Source: Bacteroides sp. (GTDB lineage: Bacteria; Bacteroidota; Bacteroidia; Bacteroidales; Bacteroidaceae). Taken from it: a stretch of DNA of 64,000 bases. The translations under genes and the position numbers were made by a program. The stretch is from positions 1-64,000 of the forward strand of contig JALCME010000008.1 of assembly GCA_022648295.1 (NCBI GenBank), given 5' to 3'. Shown in pieces: positions 454-11,169 of the stretch (position 1 is its first letter; each line of letters begins with the position of its first letter). The notes below the pieces were generated by a model. That model ran no database searches and was not told the DNA's origin. It worked only from the letters and a program-made list of their open reading frames with translations.

Positions 454-2706
454 CTATTCTTTGACACACCGGACAGGATATCCACAAGAGCGAAAACCTA
501 TATTCGATGGCAAGACAAAATCGGCATACAAATAAAGATAATATGCACTCCTACTCTGTCCTATACTTGGAGATGCCGACCAACAAAAGCCTTCCCCCTC
601 GGAGTTTTCATGAAGTGTTCCATAGGTCTGAGCACGATATCCTGTTACTGGATAGTAAGTAGATTTTCCATCATGAGTAAAATTCCACCCTCTAAACGTC
701 GTTCCATCATAAAACTTGCTTCCTCCATAACTGCTATTTTCCCAGTTTGTAAAAGATGATTCGGAAGGATATTCCACATAATCAAAATAACGCCATGGTG
801 AATAATTGTCATTCGAAGGAATGTTTACTGTCTCTGAATAGGCCGGCACACGCCATCCGGCAGGGCAGGGATCGTATATGGTTTTGCCTCCTGAAGAAGC
901 AGAATTCCACAGATAAAGACTATTGATGGAATCAGCAGAAGTAGCAGCATCCATCCATCCTGTTCTTATTGCCAGAAATTCATCTGGGTGAGCTATTGCA
1001 TAAGCAATACCCGAATTATCAAGTGTTAGAGGCGTGGCCGATAAAGTAGTAGCATCACCATAATAGGCAATATCGGGATTTGTATATGATTCTGTATCCC
1101 AACTGGGTATGCCAGGAAAAGGGTCTTTCCGCCCCCACTGATAAAGAAGTCCACAAACTCCGGTATCTGAAGCATCATAATCATTGCGTGTTGCCCCCAA
1201 ATTGCGATCCATAAACACATAATCCCGATAACCGTTATTAGCTGTATAGGTTGCATCCGTAACATTTGGATTATAATTCGTCACCCAGATATGCCAGGAC
1301 CACAAAGCTTTACTTGTATCGTCATTATCAACAACCTTTATCACGGCATTACCAGGCGAAATACCAGCCGGAACCATTACTGTAAAATAGGTATCCGCAC
1401 CCAAAGCATCCCTCACTCCGGTGCCTGTGGCATTACTGAGTGTCACTAATCCTAGTGCTGTTTGCCACACCACACTTGCAGTCCATGAAGTAGAAGTTCT
1501 TATTTGAGCAGTACCTGCACTATTGGCTCTCCTAACCGGAATATTCACAGAACCTCCCGGAGGAACAATATAACAATTGGACAATCCGTCCGAGGCAGCG
1601 GACTGCACCCCGTTTAAAACGGTAACTCTTGAATCAGCCTCATTACACTTTAACTTAATGTTATAAATGTATTTGTAGTTTCGCTTAATATTGAAATTCG
1701 TTGTATTATCCGCACCCAAATAGACTCTCCATACCGCTTTATACCCCAGAGCCTCCCCATTGATCAGTACATAGGTGGCACTGTCGGAAGGTGCATTGTA
1801 CTGTGTCTTTTGATTTTGGGAAGCAATAGTAGAATTTACTCCACGACGATTCTCATACATATAAAAAAAGCCTTTAACCTCACTAGCTCCAGCGGCATCT
1901 ATTGAGCCACTCGTTACCCAATCATCACTGGTCGACGGGTTCCCGGAATCATCACCGGTTTCTCCCGCATTGTCGGCTACAGAACCTTCTGTTGTCAAGG
2001 AACGGTTTACATAGTATGTACTCGCAGGCAGACTACAAATAGCATAATTATCAATCGTAATACCACTACCCTCTTCCACGGTAATATCCAAATCCACCCG
2101 AGCAACCATACGGGTCACTGTCATTCCGGAGGAGAGAGTACTCTCTCCCGCATTGATATCGGTTATTACACTTCCACACATCGGCAAATAAGTCGTTTCA
2201 GTAGAAGTGGAATTCAGTCCTCCCCAAGCTGCAATCCGACTGGTCAGACTTTTCAATTTTAATTCGGTATTCACTACATCCCCATTAAAAATATCTGGAT
2301 TATTGGTATTGGCTATGGCATAGATCGTACAATTCTTCCCGCTACGTGCTTTCACTGTTACAGAGCATGAAGAAGCTACCGCGTCAAAAGTGGAATAATT
2401 CATCCCTATAATATCGCCGGCACTATTATACACCAATATATACATATCATGTATCACATCTTCATTCACACTACGGGTAGTAACCTCTTGTGGAGTTTCG
2501 GCCGTTATTTGAAACTTGATTATTGCAGTATTGTCCTCTTCCGTTGTAGAAGAAGACAGATCATCTGTACAGGCAGCTAAGCATGAAAGAACGAAACATA
2601 TGCAAAGAAGAAACAGCCATAATCGTCCTTCTTTGCACATATTCAGCAAATTCGCTCTTCTTTCACTCCCTTTCCACACTCTATTTATACTTCTATTACA
2701 ACTCAT
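454..2706 (-). CDS. Pilus-tip/adhesin candidate: fimbrillin-like N-terminus with C-terminal FISUMP domain
   Basis: Likely surface lipoprotein acting as tip or accessory subunit of the type V pilus encoded by this operon. The start at 2706 is chosen because AAGAGGG lies just upstream. An ATG at 2640 gives a shorter signal peptide, and the frame stays open to a GTG at 2802. A hydrophobic stretch ends in the lipobox LAAC, about residue 46. The next ~300 residues look like a Mfa/FimE-type fimbrillin region ('VARVDLDITVEEG', 'GFFYMYENRRG'). A BACON-like Ig-fold segment follows, then about 240 residues of FISUMP domain ('VFMDRNLGATRN', 'LYQWGRKDPFPG', 'CPAGWRVP', 'GFRSCGYPVRCV'). FISUMP is an extracellular domain of unsettled function, so the tip role is inferred from gene order. 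Confidence 0.85.
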   Translation of the reverse strand: MSCNRSINRVWKGSERRANLLNMCKEGRLWLFLLCICFVLSCLAACTDDLSSSTTEEDNTAIIKFQITAETPQEVTTRSVNEDVIHDMYILVYNSAGDIIGMNYSTFDAVASSCSVTVKARSGKNCTIYAIANTNNPDIFNGDVVNTELKLKSLTSRIAAWGGLNSTSTETTYLPMCGSVITDINAGESTLSSGMTVTRMVARVDLDITVEEGSGITIDNYAICSLPASTYYVNRSLTTEGSVADNAGETGDDSGNPSTSDDWVTSGSIDAAGASEVKGFFYMYENRRGVNSTIASQNQKTQYNAPSDSATYVLINGEALGYKAVWRVYLGADNTTNFNIKRNYKYIYNIKLKCNEADSRVTVLNGVQSAASDGLSNCYIVPPGGSVNIPVRRANSAGTAQIRTSTSWTASVVWQTALGLVTLSNATGTGVRDALGADTYFTVMVPAGISPGNAVIKVVDNDDTSKALWSWHIWVTNYNPNVTDATYTANNGYRDYVFMDRNLGATRNDYDASDTGVCGLLYQWGRKDPFPGIPSWDTESYTNPDIAYYGDATTLSATPLTLDNSGIAYAIAHPDEFLAIRTGWMDAATSADSINSLYLWNSASSGGKTIYDPCPAGWRVPAYSETVNIPSNDNYSPWRYFDYVEYPSESSFTNWENSSYGGSKFYDGTTFRGWNFTHDGKSTYYPVTGYRAQTYGTLHENSEGEGFCWSASPSIGQSRSAYYLYLYADFVLPSNIGFRSCGYPVRCVKE

Positions 2707-2758
2707 CCTAATCCCTCTTAGATACAGACTTGAAGTCTTTAATACCACACAACCTATT

Positions 2759-3739
2759 TTAAATTTGCACATCTTGTTCGTTCGTTCCCCAAGGTTCCAC
2801 ACTAACCGTCACATGCAGACGTGCATAGTGGAAATCAACCGTGATATAAGTTTCCACGCCGGAAAGTGCCTTCAATATATTGCCATCATCATCCGTGGTA
2901 ATAGTGAATAATAAGGTACTATCCTTATATAAATCAATGCATATATGCTGATCGTCATTAGTGGGGAACACCCGAAAAAGCGGAGCATACCATTCATCTT
3001 TACCACTTACAGCTTGCATAGGCGGAGCATAACCGGCCTCGTCATCCGACGGTTCACCAAGGAAGTTCAGTGCACTGCCAGTGCCACGCACCACCATATG
3101 CAAGTCCACATTCGAACTACTGAAATATTCAGCTGCATGACTCACACGAACAGACAATCCGGCAGCTAAACGCTCCATCACCAGTTTTACCGTATCACTT
3201 TGTAAACTTCTGGTTGAAGTACCAGACAATTCACGCCGGGTATAAAAAAGATCAGTAACCGGCAGACTATAACCGTTTGCAGTCTGCAATAACTCAATCT
3301 TAGCTTCCTGTAAAGAGGTTCCTACAGAGAGTTGGGGAAGTTTAAGGCTGTCCCCTTTCAAATTTCCCCAGGCTACCAAAGTCAACCTTTTATTCTTCTC
3401 CTCTCCGAAAAGAAAATCAGAAGAGCTTCCACGGGGTATGGTACGAACAAAACCATCTTCATCAAATAAATAGAGATCTATTGAAGTCACCGTCCCCGAA
3501 GACGTTACATCCACCCCCTGCGGATCAACAGCCTTTACCGTAAGCTCATACTGCATACAGCTATCCATCTGCTCACGCACGCAACCTTGTAAGAATTGGG
3601 CAAAGACCAATAGCAAAACAAAAGCCGGCAAACTGAAGAATGCAACTTTGTCTGTAAAAACAGAAATGCTGACCATACGTAGATAAGAACTGCGCTGTAA
3701 CCTGCTAAAAAAATAATATGTCTGTAGGACAAACTTCAT
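2759..3739 (-). CDS. FimB/Mfa2-family pilus anchor lipoprotein
   Basis: Member of the Mfa2/FimB family (DUF1812), which caps and anchors type V pili to the outer membrane. A long hydrophobic signal region ends in the lipobox LQGC, followed by two nearby cysteines (VREQMDSC). The core shows the family's 'LYLFDEDGFVRTI', 'LTLVAWGN' and 'YITVDFHYARLHVTV' strands. The frame opens with a TTG at 3757 that overlaps the upstream TGA stop. The first ATG is at 3739, and an ATG at 3676 would give a more ordinary signal-peptide length. It sits directly after the fimbrillin, the same order as FimA-FimB in Porphyromonas. Confidence 0.87.
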   Translation of the reverse strand: MKFVLQTYYFFSRLQRSSYLRMVSISVFTDKVAFFSLPAFVLLLVFAQFLQGCVREQMDSCMQYELTVKAVDPQGVDVTSSGTVTSIDLYLFDEDGFVRTIPRGSSSDFLFGEEKNKRLTLVAWGNLKGDSLKLPQLSVGTSLQEAKIELLQTANGYSLPVTDLFYTRRELSGTSTRSLQSDTVKLVMERLAAGLSVRVSHAAEYFSSSNVDLHMVVRGTGSALNFLGEPSDDEAGYAPPMQAVSGKDEWYAPLFRVFPTNDDQHICIDLYKDSTLLFTITTDDDGNILKALSGVETYITVDFHYARLHVTVSVEPWGTNEQDVQI

Positions 3740-3753
3740 CAAAGCTTTCTTTA

Positions 3754-4989
3754 TCAATTAAAAGCCACACTCTGTTCAATGGCTGTAGGCCAAGGAGTTA
3801 CACTTATATTGATAGATAAAGCAGCAGGAGCAATATTATCCGTAGGCAAAGCAGCCCCCTTAGTTCTGATGGTAACAGACAAATTATAAAGTTGATTACG
3901 AGAGATGCTACCGGTAGAAGTTCCTGTATTATCACCATTATAGGTTGTACCGGACTGGGTTTTATTTACAATAACCGGATAAAATACTGTTTCAGGAGCA
4001 GCTGTCTCCCCATCGCCATCAGAATCAAATAGACCTTGAATGACAAAAGCTGTAGGACTTGCGCTTCCATCATTTGCAAAAGCATAAAACCAATAATAGG
4101 GAACGGTTCCCGGTATAGGCGAACTTGATCCAATGGCAGGCTCACTTCCTGCTGTCTGGACATTAAACAGATAATTATTTATATCACTAGTCCATTTCTT
4201 TTCTGTATTGTCCCAAGTACCTCCTCCTTTAATGTAACTGCCTGACATTTCTTCACTAATAATAGTTGAGGGAGTGACCTTCGTTCCATCAATAGCATCC
4301 CTGAGAAATACCCGCTGTAATTTAAAGGTTGCGCCAGAATAAGCTGTTCCTGTAAAATTAGTACTAATACCAGTCAATGTGATGCGGGATACCATACGTA
4401 CGAGAGATACAGATAAATCACTTGTTGTATTACCTGGAGAAAGAGTAAAAGTCTGCGCATTAGCATTGTCAGCCACATTACCTGACATAGGAAGATTTGT
4501 TGAAACCTGTACCTCCCCATCGGAAGAAGCAGTGGAACTGCTCAAACCAATAATAGTTCCGATAAAAGAGGACTTTATTTTAACATTATTCAAAGTAGCA
4601 ACCACAGACGCCGGTACATTTGCCACTGCTACCGCGGTGCAACCATTCATTGTTCCTTTCACTAAAGGTACCTCTATTGAAGCAGATTTAGATACATCTG
4701 GATTTGTCACACTCTTAATAATTAAAGTATTACCATATGAATCAAAAACCCCCACAACAATATTATTCACCTTCTGCTCACCTATTGGATTGCCATCTTC
4801 ATCCGTATTCTCAGATGGTGCAGTCCCTCCACTTGCCCGGGTACCGGCATTAGCTCCCGTAAGGGTCAATTCTATTTTGGCAGTCTGTTGCTGCCCTGAT
4901 TCCGGCGTTACACTCTCGTCATTACTGCACGAAGTGAAAAATGTCACACATAAAGTTACGATAAAAAAAACTTTTCTTTTCATTTTCAT
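3754..4989 (-). CDS. Fimbrillin family major pilus subunit (FimA/Mfa1-like lipoprotein)
   Basis: Type V pilus structural subunit. A short signal peptide ends in a lipobox (FTSC), followed by the threonine- and alanine-rich start of the mature protein. 'NAGTRASGG' offers an arginine site. In Porphyromonas fimbrillins an arginine protease cuts at such a site to expose the donor-strand groove, and the equivalent here is inferred. The body has the alternating strands of the family ('IVVGVFDSYGNTLI', 'LVRMVSRITLTGI') and a C-terminal 'INISVTPWPTAIEQSVAF', the segment expected to act as donor strand. ATG at 4989 or 4983. The gene overlaps the anchor gene by four bases if the latter uses its TTG start. 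Confidence 0.88.
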   Translation of the reverse strand: MKMKRKVFFIVTLCVTFFTSCSNDESVTPESGQQQTAKIELTLTGANAGTRASGGTAPSENTDEDGNPIGEQKVNNIVVGVFDSYGNTLIIKSVTNPDVSKSASIEVPLVKGTMNGCTAVAVANVPASVVATLNNVKIKSSFIGTIIGLSSSTASSDGEVQVSTNLPMSGNVADNANAQTFTLSPGNTTSDLSVSLVRMVSRITLTGISTNFTGTAYSGATFKLQRVFLRDAIDGTKVTPSTIISEEMSGSYIKGGGTWDNTEKKWTSDINNYLFNVQTAGSEPAIGSSSPIPGTVPYYWFYAFANDGSASPTAFVIQGLFDSDGDGETAAPETVFYPVIVNKTQSGTTYNGDNTGTSTGSISRNQLYNLSVTIRTKGAALPTDNIAPAALSINISVTPWPTAIEQSVAFN

Positions 4990-5062: not shown

Positions 5063-6553
5063 TCACTTTACCTGTTTCCTCAAATATGTCAAAGCCTGCC
5101 GGGCTTCTTTCACCCCGTTAGCTGCGGCCATTTGCAAATAAACTTCAGCTTTATCGCGATTGCCTTCAAGCAGGTAAAGGATGCCCATGTTATTATAAGC
5201 CAGCGGAAGTGTGGCATACTTTTCAAGATAGGCACGAGCTTTCTTTACATCGCGTTTGCTCAAAGCCACTGCAGCAGCATTGATAGCAGCCTCCGGACTA
5301 TCGGGAAACAAACGTGCGGCAAGATCGAAAGCATCATTATATTCGTTGGAACCTTTGGGGTAGCTCATCGCCACGGCAAAGAACTCGGAAAGTTTTAAGG
5401 AGCGTGAACCCATTTCAAACAAACGACGTCCCTCGGCTGTGCCCAAATGATGTTGAACATAGTCAATAGAATATTCCACACGTCTTACTTTTGGGAAAAT
5501 ATACTCTACAAGGTATTTATATGGAGCTCCATCCGCCAACTTCAACAGCGTCCGTTCACGACCCTTAGTCAAATCAACCGTATTGATAATATCTGCCACC
5601 GCCTGCCGAAGAGGCATATTGGAATCCCTCACCAACGTACGAATAGAATCCCAGTCTTCGGCCACCCAGTTCACCTCAAAAGGTACATTGCCCGCCACGT
5701 AGTTTTCACGCAAATAATCCTTCAAGGCAAGTGCACGACGTAAGGAAACCTTCTCATTTTTGCGATAATCTCCTTCCGGAGAACCATACCCCATTACTTT
5801 TAATCGGGTAACCGTGAGACCGCTTTGATGTTCGAGAGAATGTATGGCTTCACGAAGGCGGAAACAAATTTCATAGTCTTGCTTACCGGTAGAGAGCTGG
5901 TCCAGACCATTACTGCCCCAATACGGAATACAGCCTTTTTGCACATGAAGAGTATCTTCTCCATCAACCAATGGAACAATATTAGTCAAGGCCAAATAAC
6001 AACTATCAATATCAGTTCCTATGGATGAAGTATGCAACCGGGACATCTTCACACCTTCCGCTATTTTATCCTCATAGATACCAGCTGGTTTACCATTACA
6101 ACCACATTCACTGGTGCGAAGAACCAAGGATGCACCCTCCATCCAGTCCAGATAAGGAACTTGAATATTATAGGCCAGTTGACGCACCTTTTTGCGATTA
6201 TTCTTCGCGACAACAGCAGGTGCAGAGGACGCAGATGCAGGTTTCAACCGGGAGCGTTGTTTGGAAGACAGCACTTGCTTGCGGTGATAGACCCGTTGCC
6301 TGATGCACCCGTTCACCACCATGGGAGGAAGTTCCAACACACATTTCTCCGATTTCAATAACGGGGTGAGAGTTAGTGACTCATTGGAGGATAATTGCAA
6401 ATTTTCGTAATTGACACTCATACCCACATGCAGTTTTCCTTTTGAAACGGACAAGTCTTTATCGGTGATGTCCAATTGCCCTTTATATACCTGCTGGGCA
6501 TAGACTTCTGCTCCAAGCAAAAGCAAGCACAATACAATTAATTTTTTTTTCAT
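5063..6553 (-). CDS. DUF3868 protein with OmpA-like and TPR-like regions, pilus accessory
   Basis: Conserved partner of Bacteroidales fimbrillin operons. The ATG at 6553 is chosen because it gives a clean signal peptide (MKKKLIVLCLLLLGAEVYAQ). The N-terminal third is the DUF3868 region (QQVYKGQLDI..., 'VYHRKQVLSSKQRSRL', 'YLDWMEGASL'). The middle resembles an OmpA C-terminal peptidoglycan-binding fold ('LKVMGYGSPEGDYRKNEKVSLRRALALKDYL'), with the Gly-Ser-Pro-Glu-Gly and Arg-Arg-Ala features of that family. The last ~110 residues look like TPR helices ('AAINAAAVALSKRDVKKAR', 'YNNMGILYLLEGNRDKAEVY'). Its position between DUF3575 and the major subunit suggests an outer-membrane base or assembly role. 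That is inferred. Confidence 0.85.
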   Translation of the reverse strand: MKKKLIVLCLLLLGAEVYAQQVYKGQLDITDKDLSVSKGKLHVGMSVNYENLQLSSNESLTLTPLLKSEKCVLELPPMVVNGCIRQRVYHRKQVLSSKQRSRLKPASASSAPAVVAKNNRKKVRQLAYNIQVPYLDWMEGASLVLRTSECGCNGKPAGIYEDKIAEGVKMSRLHTSSIGTDIDSCYLALTNIVPLVDGEDTLHVQKGCIPYWGSNGLDQLSTGKQDYEICFRLREAIHSLEHQSGLTVTRLKVMGYGSPEGDYRKNEKVSLRRALALKDYLRENYVAGNVPFEVNWVAEDWDSIRTLVRDSNMPLRQAVADIINTVDLTKGRERTLLKLADGAPYKYLVEYIFPKVRRVEYSIDYVQHHLGTAEGRRLFEMGSRSLKLSEFFAVAMSYPKGSNEYNDAFDLAARLFPDSPEAAINAAAVALSKRDVKKARAYLEKYATLPLAYNNMGILYLLEGNRDKAEVYLQMAAANGVKEARQALTYLRKQVK

Positions 6554-6634
6554 TGTCGCTATTATATACCTTGATACTCTGATTATTTCTGATTCTATAA
6601 AAAGCATGATTTAACACACAGTCCCCCTACTAAC

Positions 6635-7219
6635 CTATTTCAAAAGATAAACCACAGAAATAGCAGCCTTTGTCGGCCCTAAATAAATCTTATGACCTTT
6701 GCCAGTCCGCTCACCACAATGTACACAGCGATAGCGTTCATAACCGACATGAACGTAACCCGCTCCCAATTCAGCTTCTATTCCCCAGCGGGGAGAAAGA
6801 ATCCACTGGTAGCCATAAGAAAGTCCTCCCCCAAGCACAGCCCCTTCGTAACGAGAAGAATGTGTACCGGGATAAAGACCAAAAGGAAGATTTTTATGTG
6901 CAATATTGTATTCGCCGGTTAAGAAGTGAATTCCAAAAAAATGGCTACTAAAAGGTTCACAACTCCAAAAACGCAGTTCAGGTTGAAACAGCCAATGCCG
7001 CCAGCGATATAGGCTTTCTTTTGAATAGAAGGGATAATAATGCCCACAAAGATCTAGTGTGAGACTTGTCCCTAATTTCACCTCTAAACTAACATTCGGA
7101 GAGCCCATAGCATTTGCAATCAAGTTCGTTTTCACCGCAACAACCTGGCCAAAAGAATCTACATGGGTAAACAGACTGCATAATAGAGCCAACAGAATCA
7201 TTTTCTTCTTTGTCATCAT
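6635..7219 (-). CDS. DUF3575 outer-membrane barrel protein of the pilus operon
   Basis: 194-residue protein with a signal peptide ending near SFGQ and alternating aromatic strands typical of a small outer-membrane beta-barrel. 'AVKTNLIANAMGSPNVSLEVKLGTS' is the DUF3575 signature start, and 'YHWRHW'-like and 'GGGLSYGYQWILSPRWGIEAELGAGY' segments follow. DUF3575 and DUF3868 proteins commonly travel together with fimbrillin genes in Bacteroides. The biochemical role is unknown. Its ATG overlaps the stop of the upstream regulator-like gene by four bases, so the two are probably translationally coupled. Confidence 0.85.
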   Translation of the reverse strand: MMTKKKMILLALLCSLFTHVDSFGQVVAVKTNLIANAMGSPNVSLEVKLGTSLTLDLCGHYYPFYSKESLYRWRHWLFQPELRFWSCEPFSSHFFGIHFLTGEYNIAHKNLPFGLYPGTHSSRYEGAVLGGGLSYGYQWILSPRWGIEAELGAGYVHVGYERYRCVHCGERTGKGHKIYLGPTKAAISVVYLLK

Positions 7220-7638
7220 TCTGTCATCATCTTATCATATCGTCCTTCGGGAAGAATAACCTCAACCAATCTAATTTCCGAGAAAAAACGACAAGCCATA
7301 TCATTCATCACACTCAAACGATGCCCCACAATACCACAACTCTCATTCAAACATTCATCTGGTTCTGTGTATAAACGAAGATACCCCCCGGTAACACGCA
7401 ATACATCATAAAGCGTAATATCTTGCAAGGGACGGGAAAGAGCATAGCGGAAACAAAGCAAATCATCACCCGAAGACTCAACGATGCGCAACAAACCACT
7501 ACGCCAAAGGCAGCCTAACAATTCACGCGCCTGTCCCCGGGAAGATTCCGGAAGGGATCGTTCACATAGCGCATAACCTTGCATATAACTGATTTCTTTC
7601 AACAAGGAAATCGTTTCTCTCATTTCTCGGGTAAGCAT
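7216..7638 (-). CDS. Rrf2-like winged-helix protein, first gene of the pilus operon
   Basis: 140 residues, the usual Rrf2 length. The N-terminal part fits a winged helix ('ARELLGCLWRSGLLRIV' matches the recognition helix and wing of Rrf2 proteins). 'ITLYDVLRVTGGYLRLY' matches the family's dimerisation-helix start. Cys96, Cys101, His106 and Cys116 lie where IscR-type members carry their Fe-S ligands, but the spacing is not the canonical one. The start is fixed by an in-frame TAG just upstream. The ATG is only 20 bp from the left inverted repeat of the invertible segment, so this gene is the first read when the promoter is ON. A regulatory role in pilus expression is inferred. Confidence 0.65.
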   Translation of the reverse strand: MLTREMRETISLLKEISYMQGYALCERSLPESSRGQARELLGCLWRSGLLRIVESSGDDLLCFRYALSRPLQDITLYDVLRVTGGYLRLYTEPDECLNESCGIVGHRLSVMNDMACRFFSEIRLVEVILPEGRYDKMMTE

Positions 7639-7658
7639 AATCTATTTTTTCCTTTTCT

Positions 7659-7678
7659 GTTACTTCACAGGTAACGGA
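7659..7678 (+). repeat. Left inverted repeat of the invertible segment
   Basis: GTTACTTCACAGGTAACGGA, the exact reverse complement of 8150-8169. The repeat contains the dyad GTTAC-N7-GTAAC (N7 = TTCACAG), a core described for small invertible promoter regions in Bacteroides fragilis. It is the expected binding and crossover site of the neighbouring tyrosine recombinase. Confidence 0.92.
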
Positions 7679-8103
7679 AATAGATGAAAAGAATGTAAGC
7701 CTGAGGGCTGTAAAAGGCATTTCTGATAGTACGGAAACATGACGTTCTTCCTTTGGTATGCAATCATTACCACAGGAAAAGATGGATACTTGCATCCAAA
7801 TTAAGGGAGAAAGGAACAAAACATGGAAAAATGTTTTAAACAGAAGACTTTCAAACAAGAATAGATAAAAAACCGCATTTCAAACGGTTAAAACGTCAAC
7901 ACAAAATAACTTTTAGTTATCGTTGCTAAAAAAAAGCAAAACAAAGAACAGATATAAAGACGAAACTTGTCTAAATATCTAAATAATGAGGAACAGAAAT
8001 ATTATCATACACTTCTTTTGTGAGCAATGAAAATGCGTAAACCGAAAAAATCAACCCCTATAAAGTGTTTTTTAGGCTAATATCTGATTTTATAACACTT
8101 TTA

Positions 8104-8135
8104 TTTGGTTGTTAATGAAAATATTTCAATATTTG
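8104..8135 (+). promoter_or_regulatory. Promoter inside the invertible segment, pointing away from the pilus operon
   Basis: -33 box TTTG at 8104-8107, 20-bp spacer, -7 box AATATTTG at 8128-8135 (one mismatch to TAnnTTTG). It ends about 15 bp before the right inverted repeat, so a transcript would run through the repeat into the region convergent with the recombinase gene. Confidence 0.6.
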
Positions 8136-8149
8136 CACTTACAAATAAA

Positions 8150-8169
8150 TCCGTTACCTGTGAAGTAAC
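8150..8169 (-). repeat. Right inverted repeat of the invertible segment
   Basis: TCCGTTACCTGTGAAGTAAC, perfect inverted copy of 7659-7678. Pairing breaks at once on both sides apart from an isolated match, as expected for a defined recombination site. Confidence 0.92.
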
Positions 8170-8297
8170 GGCGTGTCATCAGGCTTTTTAAACAGCCTAT
8201 TCATAGTACTTTAATCAATTCACGACTTAACAGAAATGTCATATCAATCTTCTTTCACACCTTCCCTATATCCGGGAAATATTATTTAACTGAAATG

Positions 8298-9302
8298 CTA
8301 CAAATTCCATCTACCAGAGTTCCGTTTTCCGAACAGCTCATGACAAGATGCATCATCACGGGTCACCAGAGCAATAACCTTACGGTTTGCACGGTTCAAC
8401 GTCCGGTTATCAAAAGAAGCCAGATAAGTATAAGTCACCTTCTCTGAAGCATGTCCCAGGGACTCACTGATCACCGAAACCGGAATGCCCTGATGATAAG
8501 CGGCCGTAGCCCATGAATGGCGCGCTACATAAGAGGTCAATTTCACTTTTAACTCCAATAGTGCAGATAGTTGCCCTAAGTGGTGGTTATAACGCCGGAG
8601 CGCACTTTGATACTGACGATAACCCGCATCTCCCTCCTGAGTGATTATTGGAAGCAGGTAGGGAGAACCCTTCACTTGTGAAGCATACTTCTTCAGGAGG
8701 ACTCTTGCACAAGGCTCGATGGATACAGTTAGCAGACGATCGGTCTTGCTACGGCGGTAGCGCAGAACGTCTTTACTGATATCACTTTCCCGTAGGCGGA
8801 TCAAATCTACAAAGGGAATGCCACGAAGGTAAAAGGATAGCAAAAAGCAATCACGGGTAGCCTCCAACAAAGGGTAGCTACTCAAGTCGGCATCGTGCAG
8901 GTGACGGATCACCGACGGGGACACGGCACGTTTCTCGGAAGTATCTGTCCCCGTAAACACATCATCGAACAACCCCGGTGGAATCTGCGCTATGCCACGA
9001 CGAGAGGCCTGATTACAAATGGAGCGCAACATGCGCAGGTAGAGGGACACCGTGTTACGTTTGCAACCTTCCAACAGCAGATGTTGTTCGTAGCGTTTCA
9101 ACAAACATGGGGTTAGAGCACTGAAAGGAAATTCAGGATTTCCTGTAAAACGGGTCAACCGCCTCATCGAAGAGCGGTAGGAATGAGCCGTTCCATGGCG
9201 CCCGGCAAGGGCAAGTTCATCCACTAACAAAGACACAAAAGTGTTGAGTGATTCCATAAGCATAGGTCGTTTGTTCGTTTTTTGTCCAAGTCGTTTCATC
9301 AT
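8298..9302 (-). CDS. Tyrosine recombinase, likely invertase of the pilus promoter
   Basis: 334 residues. The N-terminal SAM-like core-binding domain spans roughly residues 15-110 and the catalytic domain follows. 'YVARHSWATAAYHQG' carries the His-x-x-Arg-type box, 'ISESLGHASEKVTYTYL' supplies the second His and the tyrosine nucleophile, and the first arginine lies in the 'FYLRGIPFVDLIRLRESD' stretch. The length and lack of an arm-binding domain match Bacteroides DNA invertases (Tsr/Mpi type), not integrases of mobile elements. It lies 129 bp outside the right inverted repeat and is not itself inverted. A second ATG is three bases downstream. Confidence 0.92.
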   Translation of the reverse strand: MMKRLGQKTNKRPMLMESLNTFVSLLVDELALAGRHGTAHSYRSSMRRLTRFTGNPEFPFSALTPCLLKRYEQHLLLEGCKRNTVSLYLRMLRSICNQASRRGIAQIPPGLFDDVFTGTDTSEKRAVSPSVIRHLHDADLSSYPLLEATRDCFLLSFYLRGIPFVDLIRLRESDISKDVLRYRRSKTDRLLTVSIEPCARVLLKKYASQVKGSPYLLPIITQEGDAGYRQYQSALRRYNHHLGQLSALLELKVKLTSYVARHSWATAAYHQGIPVSVISESLGHASEKVTYTYLASFDNRTLNRANRKVIALVTRDDASCHELFGKRNSGRWNL

Positions 9303-9379
9303 AACTCTTTTCTTTTTAAGTTCATCCTATAATGATAAACGAAATGCATTGCACTCCAAAAAAGCATTAAGATGACATT

Positions 9380-9400
9380 AACTTGAATTTTGTTGAAGTT
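9380..9400. repeat. Near-palindrome upstream of the recombinase gene
   Basis: AACTTGAA and TTGAAGTT flank a five-base centre with one mismatch between the arms. It lies in the leader of the recombinase gene, between its putative promoter and the ATG. It may be an operator or an RNA hairpin. Confidence 0.35.
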
Positions 9401-9465
9401 ATAATATAATTAATTGTTTGTTTTGTCTATCAACACGTAATAACAGGGTCAATAGGAAAAGCGAA

Positions 9466-9496
9466 CAAAGCTAATAAAAAATAGCTATATACTAAA
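9466..9496 (-). promoter_or_regulatory. Putative promoter of the recombinase gene
   Basis: On the minus strand, -33 TTTA (9493-9496), 19-bp spacer, -7 TAGCTTTG (9466-9473). It would give a leader of about 155 bases. The 373-bp gap 9303-9675 otherwise holds the palindrome at 9380-9400 and the proS terminator. Confidence 0.45.
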
Positions 9497-9586
9497 CAGA
9501 TCATAAATAATACCAAGCTCATTAGAAACTAGCTTAAAGAGCATTCAGCTAATATCAGAGACAACAGGAAGTAAAACTATATAAAG

Positions 9587-9619
9587 GCCCTTATTACAGC
9601 CAACAACCATAATAAGGGC
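9587..9619 (-). terminator. Terminator of proS
   Basis: Perfect 10-bp arms GCCCTTATTA (9587-9596) and TAATAAGGGC (9610-9619), followed on the minus strand by CCTTTATAT. It lies about 57 bp after the proS stop. Confidence 0.8.
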
Positions 9620-9675
9620 AAATAAATATTGTACAAAACCTCAGTCAGAAGAAAAAGGCCTTTCTACAGAATAAA

Positions 9676-11169
9676 TCAATAAGAACGGGCAAACAATACG
9701 CGGCATACCGATGGTTTGCCTGTCACCATACACTTACCAGGTTCCTTATCTCCTTCTATGAATGTATCAAAAGGAATGCAGCGGATGGTTGCCTTTGTTT
9801 CTTCTTTAATGCGCTCCTCTGTTTCAGTTGTTCCATCCCAGTGGGCAAGAATAAATCCGCCTTCTTCAATTTTCTCTTTGAACTCATCGTAGCTATCCAC
9901 CTTAATGATACGCGCATTACGATAGGTCAAAGCTTTCTGATAAATATTCTGTTGAATGTTCTCCAGCAAATCTCTAACATATTCTTCTATGCCATCGCAA
10001 GAACGGGTCTCTTTTTCGAGTGTATCACGGCGCATCACTTCCACGGTATTACTTTCCAGATCACGGCCTCCCATCACCAAACGTACAGGAACACCCCTCA
10101 ACTCATAATCGGCAAACTTAAAGCCCGGACGCTTATTATCGGCATTATCATATTTAACGGAAACGCCCATTGCTTTGAGTTTTGTTACAATGCCCGCAAT
10201 TTTTTCGTCAATCTTTTGAAGTTGTTCGGCATTCTTATAAATAGGCACAATCACTACTTGAATAGGAGCCAAATGAGGAGGTAGAACCAGTCCGTTATCA
10301 TCGGAATGGGTCATGATAAGAGCTCCCATCAAACGAGTGGATACTCCCCAGGAAGTGGCCCATACATATTCCATTTTATTCTCCTTATTGACAAACTGCA
10401 CATCGAATGCTTTAGCAAAATTCTGCCCGAGAAAGTGCGATGTACCACTTTGCAAAGCTTTACCATCCTGCATCATAGCTTCAATGGTATAAGTATCAAT
10501 AGCTCCTGCAAAACGCTCATTAGCAGATTTCACTCCTTTAATAACCGGAACAGCCATATATTTCTCTGCAAATTCACCATAAACATTCAGCATTCGCTTA
10601 GCTTCTTCCTCTGCTTCCTCACGCGTGGCATGTGCCGTGTGCCCTTCTTGCCACAAAAATTCGGCGGTACGCAAAAACAGGCGGGTACGCATTTCCCAAC
10701 GGAAAACGTTCGCCCACTGATTACACAAAATAGGAAGATCGCGATAGGAATTAATCCAATTCTTATAGGTGTTCCAGATAATAGTTTCAGAAGTAGGACG
10801 GATAATCAATTCTTCTTCCAACTTGGCGGCAGGATCGACCACTATTCCGGAGCCATCCTCAGCATTCTTCAAACGATAGTGGGTGACTACGGCACACTCC
10901 TTGGCAAAGCCTTCCACATGCTCAGCCTCACGGCTCAGGAACGATTTGGGTATTAACAACGGAAAATAAGCATTTACATGCCCGGTCTCCTTGAACATAT
11001 CGTCTAGTTGACGTTGTATTTTCTCCCAAATAGCATATCCGTAAGGTTTAATCACCATACAGCCCCTCACAGCTGATTGTTCTGCAAGGTCTGCTTTAAC
11101 CACCAATTCGTTGTACCACTGCGAATAATTTTCGCTGCGTTTGGTCAGATTCTTTAATTCTACTGCCAT
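9676..11169 (-). CDS. proS: Prolyl-tRNA synthetase, archaeal/eukaryotic type
   Basis: Cytoplasmic class II synthetase charging tRNA-Pro. At 497 residues, with no inserted editing domain and a C-terminal zinc-binding-like tail ('[18 protein letters not shown]'), it is the short archaeal/eukaryotic type common in Bacteroidetes. Motif 2 is '[28 protein letters not shown]'. Motif 1 lies in '[18 protein letters not shown]'. '[17 protein letters not shown]' supplies proline-site residues. The ATG at 11169 gives the family's usual N-terminus ([20 protein letters not shown]). It is a single gene with its own terminator. Confidence 0.97.

Follow-up and report, generated by a model that had tools for sequence, protein, structure and literature searches.

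The 511-bp segment at positions 7659-8169 of the window (the whole 64-kb stretch of Bacteroides DNA analysed here, on contig 8 of a 4.26-Mb genome in 42 contigs) is very probably a promoter inversion switch that is flipped by the neighbouring tyrosine recombinase, with the pili apparently OFF at present. A phase-variable pilus promoter, apparently OFF, had been proposed in a preliminary description of this DNA, and the proposal is supported by the recurrence of the architecture, by a motif at the cassette edge in 20 of 23 cassettes and by two orthologous sets in which the cassette is inverted.

The inverted repeats and the genes around them

The features of the locus are as follows.

454..2802, reverse strand: tip-like protein with DUF4906 (PF16249, 91.6 bits); the actual start could be internal to the listed ORF
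2759..3757, reverse strand: Mfa2-type anchor pilin (PF08842, 107.8 bits)
3754..4989, reverse strand: FimA-type stalk pilin (PF06321 and PF22492 over cut-off; lipobox-like FFTSC in the translation)
5063..6607, reverse strand: DUF3868 / OmpA-like / TPR protein (PF12984, 55.9 bits; OmpA and TPR below cut-off)
6635..7219, reverse strand: DUF3575 protein of the pilus operon (PF12099, 211 bits)
7216..7638, reverse strand: ORF1, first gene of the operon, Rrf2-fold winged-helix protein according to its predicted structure
7659..8169, no strand: putative invertible cassette, repeat to repeat (511 bp, outer span)
7659..7678, forward strand: left inverted repeat, 20 bp (core GTTAC-TTCACAG-GTAAC plus GGA)
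8104..8135, forward strand: promoter-like TTTG-N20-AATATTTG, pointing away from the operon (apparent OFF; relaxed motif match at a conserved edge position)
8150..8169, reverse strand: right inverted repeat, 20 bp (exact reverse complement of the left arm)
8298..9302, reverse strand: tyrosine recombinase, predicted invertase of the cassette (PF00589, PF13102)

The cassette lies between the recombinase gene (8298-9302) and the FimA/Mfa2-type operon (7638 down to 454), which belongs to the type V (FimA/Mfa) pilus operons by its stalk, anchor and tip genes (PF06321, PF08842 and PF16249, all over cut-off). Both neighbours are as first described, and so are the perfect 20-bp inverted repeats spanning 511 bp, whose arms are exact reverse complements. 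The chance expectation for a perfect 20-bp inverted repeat within 1 kb is about 0.00017 per 64 kb. The window contains the core GTTAC-N7-GTAAC at two places, one per arm, against 0.02 occurrences expected; PMC12118408 agrees with the initial statement that this core is known from invertible regions of Bacteroides. Over the whole genome, the bare core shows no enrichment (15 sites vs 18 for the reversed control pattern), so that the signal is carried by the pairing of cores: 10 of the 15 sites form five pairs, each 431-512 bp end to end. No Rfam family matched positions 6500-9800 at the gathering threshold.

The promoter-like motif and its orientation

The motif at 8104-8135 lies inside the repeats and points away from the operon, as had been noted before, and it is the sole relaxed promoter match (spacing 19-21, either strand) in 7000-9700. 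Compared with the Bacteroides consensus TAnnTTTG (given in PMC4747536), its -7 element has a different first base. The locus has two traits of the Bacteroidales promoter invertons, namely inverted repeats around a short intergenic segment and, inside it, a predicted promoter able to face the operon once inverted. After inversion, 54 nt would separate the -7 element from the ATG at 7638; with a start site about 7 nt further on, this agrees with the roughly 48 bases given originally.

The proposed mechanism is as follows. The neighbouring recombinase is predicted to flip the 511-bp segment. In the present orientation the predicted promoter would fire away from the pilus operon, leaving the pili OFF. 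The flip would bring its end to 54 nt before ORF1, from where it would transcribe this gene together with the pilus genes as one operon. ORF1 would be made first and could then tune its own or other pilus operons.

For 21 related cassettes, we searched the same motif and summarized its location. In 20 of them, with G54b brought into the common orientation beforehand, the full motif stands at a distance of 30-45 bp from the recombinase-side edge, vs 0.01 from shuffles, while none of the 21, in the same orientation, has it at the mirror place of the opposite edge; these cassettes are related to each other, and the counts therefore show conservation rather than independent events. The single miss, G93b, has a changed last base in the -7 motif, which is intact in its sister copies. 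Two further cassettes, G136a and G136b, carry the -7 element TATATTTG at the recombinase-side edge without TTTG at -33. With both included, the full edge motif is present in 20 of 23 cassettes and the -7 element in 22 of 23.

The edge motif is directed at the recombinase 3' end in 19 of the 21 cassettes (G54b is opposite and G93b lacks it). This would fit a role in which the outward promoter matters mainly in its present position, where antisense RNA over the recombinase 3' end limits flipping and pilus control is secondary. Against this stand the fact that the motif direction follows from geometry alone and the terminator-like hairpins in the cassettes, which have no directional pattern (7 of 21 in one direction, 6 of 21 in the other), and we regard it as very unlikely. 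The same hairpin counts led us to reject a terminator lock inside the cassette, which a hairpin at 7889-7871 had suggested.

Some relatives carry a second motif. The four G093 cassettes G93a-d (L066-L069) have a TTTG-N20/21-NANNTTTG motif mid-cassette which points toward the operon, and three cassettes of the B. fragilis group (f80a, f123a and f14a; L129, L136 and L137) combine a second motif toward the operon with an edge -7 element facing the recombinase. In these seven cassettes the label OFF may be leaky or wrong, and their pilus may be partly constitutive.

The recombinase and its relatives

The window recombinase has the domains and catalytic residues of the Tsr19-type tyrosine invertases. 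R160, K186, R261, H284 and Y293 are invariant across the five paralogues in the genome; their catalytic roles are assigned from the motif spacing. Tyr258 presumably sits where many relatives have His. In the tree, which is a quick one with 39 rows, long branches and three rows dropped, the Tsr19/EPS recombinases (8 rows, SH-aLRT 85) and the group of the window (22 rows, SH-aLRT 91) form separate branches; G17c, counted with the group elsewhere, was not placed. The window recombinase is predicted to work like Tsr19, yet it is not grouped with it. No relatives were found among viral contigs, and an order-wide search at E <= 1e-105 returned relatives in the genus of the window only (2 of 393 genomes sampled).

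In the main comparison, an inverted-repeat pair lies 51-221 bp past the recombinase gene for 22 of 23 recombinases; for the recombinase group alone, with G136 (two pairs) and G122 (none) added, the count is 23 of 25. The order of recombinase, repeats and promoter cassette given in the preliminary description therefore recurs, both in five cassettes of this genome and behind these 22 recombinases. Convincing repeat pairs were not found at G93h, G122, G091, L022, L028, L038, f80g, f123f and g133a, and L034 and L036 have unrelated repeats only. The G17b recombinase contains an in-frame stop. At L073 (G93h), a serpin gene is preceded by a partial recombinase match that has an in-frame stop and lacks repeats. 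L113 (G122) is likely a solo ORF1 site by the lengths of the following genes, where the recombinase is kept and neither the repeat pair nor ORF1 was found.

Inversion of the cassette between related genomes

Two orthologous sets combine collinear flanks with a reversed cassette. Between G54b and G59, the recombinase is 93% identical and the flanks, at 89% on the left and 95% on the right, are collinear, while the cassette is 86% identical only when reversed; a third orthologue, G38b, agrees with the orientation of G59. In the second set, whose recombinases (G38c, G54d and G59c) are about 40% identical to that of the window and have the same core, the flanks of G38c and G59c are collinear (89% and 77%) and the cassette is 82% identical in reverse. 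G54d is also reversed relative to G59c, with a collinear right flank (79%) and a left flank cut by the contig end. By motif and alignment, G38c and G54d are ON and G59c is OFF. At both naturally flipped loci ORF1 stands behind the cassette, and no pilin genes were found after it. Inversion of the cassette at related non-pilin loci is supported by these comparisons.

That the repeats are instead a terminator or a chance feature without recombination has in its favour that short hairpins can form in both arms, one of them terminator-like. This reading is contradicted by the cassette inversions at related loci, the perfect repeats and their chance expectation of 0.00017, as well as by the like repeats beside 22 of 23 recombinases, and we consider it extremely improbable.

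By the edge motif, 20 of the 21 cassettes are apparently OFF (G93b via alignment to its sisters) and one is apparently ON; for G136a and G136b, only the -7 element indicates OFF. Among the 16 pilus-linked cassettes of the recombinase group, none has the edge motif facing the operon: in 14 it points away (in G93b as an aligned remnant), and in G136a and G136b the edge -7 element points away. Besides, no flips were found at pilus loci among three B. fragilis-group genomes, where orthologous cassettes share one orientation. These pilus-linked cassettes, never seen reversed, would suit a frozen relic, in which the repeats and the recombinase persist, the cassette no longer flips and the operon is silent or otherwise driven; degraded relatives (the stop in G17b, the broken G93h without repeats, G122 without a pair, the changed -7 of G93b) point the same way. 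However, the recombinase of the window is intact and keeps the invariant catalytic positions, the repeats beside it are perfect, relatives do differ by inversion, and a bias to OFF is also known for the working Tsr19 switch, so a relic is unlikely here and a live promoter switch is the reading we prefer.

Five putative sister switches in one genome

The five paired cores of the genome correspond to five cassettes on contigs 1, 8, 13, 15 and 16, each 51-128 bp behind a recombinase that is 61-100% identical to that of the window. Downstream lie FimA/Mfa2/DUF4906 operons on contigs 8, 13 and 16, and contigs 1 and 15 have Mfa-like genes there; the three FimA-type operons account for all four Mfa2 matches of the genome. 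The five cassettes have a common orientation relative to the recombinase. For example, those of contigs 8 and 16 align at 82% as they are and at 11% reversed. The contig 15 cassette aligns weakly (38% vs 31%), and its orientation was taken from the promoter motif. The 7-bp spacer is TTCACAG on contigs 8, 13 and 15, and TTTACAG on contigs 1 and 16.

With recombination cores that are identical or differ by one base, cross-action of the recombinases is plausible, and each recombinase might act on the cassettes of the other units too. Such cross-talk of local recombinases is directly testable here, since one genome holds five closely similar switches. Five cassettes with ORF1 alone have TTGA(A/C/T)AG spacers. 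Where the same genome also has pilus cassettes, the spacers of these are different, which may keep the switches separate.

Two more GTTAC-core cassettes of the genome, L005 (contig 3, 143125-143432; 308 bp) and L007 (contig 5, 149828-150139; 312 bp), become visible once one arm may vary, and their two recombinases pair together in the tree. Elsewhere, at L071 (G93f), a pilus-group cassette stands before glycan genes (glycosyltransferase, epimerase) rather than pilins.

A possibly portable module

Among contigs 8, 13 and 16, DNA identity is 83-86% for the recombinase gene, 74-82% for the non-coding cassette and 48-72% for the operon genes, and it falls from 80-84% to 39-48% about 150 bp upstream of the recombinase. 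A similar pattern was found between copies b and c of G093, with 97.5% for the recombinase, 99.6% for the cassette and 97.5% for ORF1, against 57.5% for FimA and 53.6% for Mfa2, while copies c and d are alike throughout (98-100%), as plain duplication would be. Since the non-coding cassette is more conserved than the genes that follow, the comparison suggests that recombinase and cassette have been copied or exchanged between loci, as a portable switch fitted to different pili. Selection acting only on the switch, or rapid change in the pilins, could explain the same contrast in identity.

The module also stands alone, with ORF1 and no pilin genes found, at two sites. A wider picture is possible, which we put forward tentatively and with some doubt: recombinase, promoter and Rrf2-fold regulator would travel as a module on varied pili, with cross-acting recombinases, a combinatorial pilus wardrobe and a regulator that links the switches.

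ORF1, a candidate regulator

ORF1 stays below the cut-offs of the Rrf2 family (18.3 vs 30 bits in Pfam, 16 vs 73.3 bits in NCBIfam), while its predicted model (pLDDT 76) has the Rrf2 fold. In the structure comparison, the best 20 rows by Z (11.1-7.4) carry an Rrf2 title or belong to that family; the best Foldseek E is 0.0024, with none under 0.001. We found 63 relatives of ORF1 in 158 genomes, and an inverted-repeat cassette precedes 50 of the 63. At 40 ORF1 loci, the edge motif points away in 17 and toward ORF1 in none, and is not readable in 23.

ORF1 is, judging from the model, likely a new candidate regulator. It represents an unnamed gene family that marks inverton-linked pilus operons and would be a natural candidate for coordinating them, a role that could be likened to that of the UpxY proteins for capsules in the literature. 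Among the open-licence papers found, Rrf2, Bacteroides, fimbriae and phase-variable are mentioned together in just one, a small-RNA review, which is weak evidence of novelty.

Comparison with known systems

Invertons before surface operons of Bacteroides, including fimbrillin genes, are known (PMC11892184 and PMC12632263). The inverton-before-fimbrillin type itself is thus not new, and the most noteworthy parts are the set of five sister units and the recurring ORF1. Together they make a clear example, present in several copies, of pili that are likely controlled by DNA inversion as capsules are, and the Bacteroides lineage concerned is absent from the papers we found.

One of the closest known systems is Tsr19/BF2766 with IVp-I of the B. 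fragilis EPS. There, too, the recombinase is directly followed by an inverted-repeat promoter cassette of its own and then by a surface operon, with a bias to OFF (PMC4747536 and PMC3090145). Tsr19 was experimentally shown to invert its local promoter, which is mostly OFF in broth culture (PMC4747536) and OFF in all three genome sequences (PMC3090145). It differs in protein (about 50-53% identity to the window recombinase, on a separate tree branch), in its CTTAC core vs GTTAC, and in its EPS cargo vs the pilus.

The capsule invertons with a GTTAC core share the palindromic core, the GGA tail and the logic of promoter flipping, but have capsule (UpxY) cargo and shorter cassettes; for instance, the one of B. 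xylanisolvens has the 20-bp repeat GTTACTTCTTAGGTAACGGA and is 290 bp long (PMC12118408). A phase-variable surface-protein/fimbria locus of B. fragilis (Weinacht 2004, as cited in PMC12632263) likewise combines a tyrosine recombinase with a phase-variable pilus-like operon. The B. fragilis-type locus L130 has the order recombinase, GTTAC cassette, ORF1, DUF3575 and a DUF3868-like gene, the last label coming from a local profile where Pfam gives no family.

The Tsr19 locus in B. fragilis Q1F2 was recognised by a head-to-head (divergent) resolvase gene, as described beside the invertase for mpi and BF2766 (PMC4747536). The identity of the Tsr19 group is also indicated by the three following genes, which match the lengths of the Pfam-tested EPS genes on contig 21 of the window genome; these lengths fit the published order WbaP-Wza-Wzc (PMC3090145). 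On that contig (L083:7831-8859 and downstream), a Tsr19-like recombinase is followed by a CTTAC-core cassette of 325 bp and then by EPS genes of the Bac_transf, Poly_export and Wzz/GNVR types.
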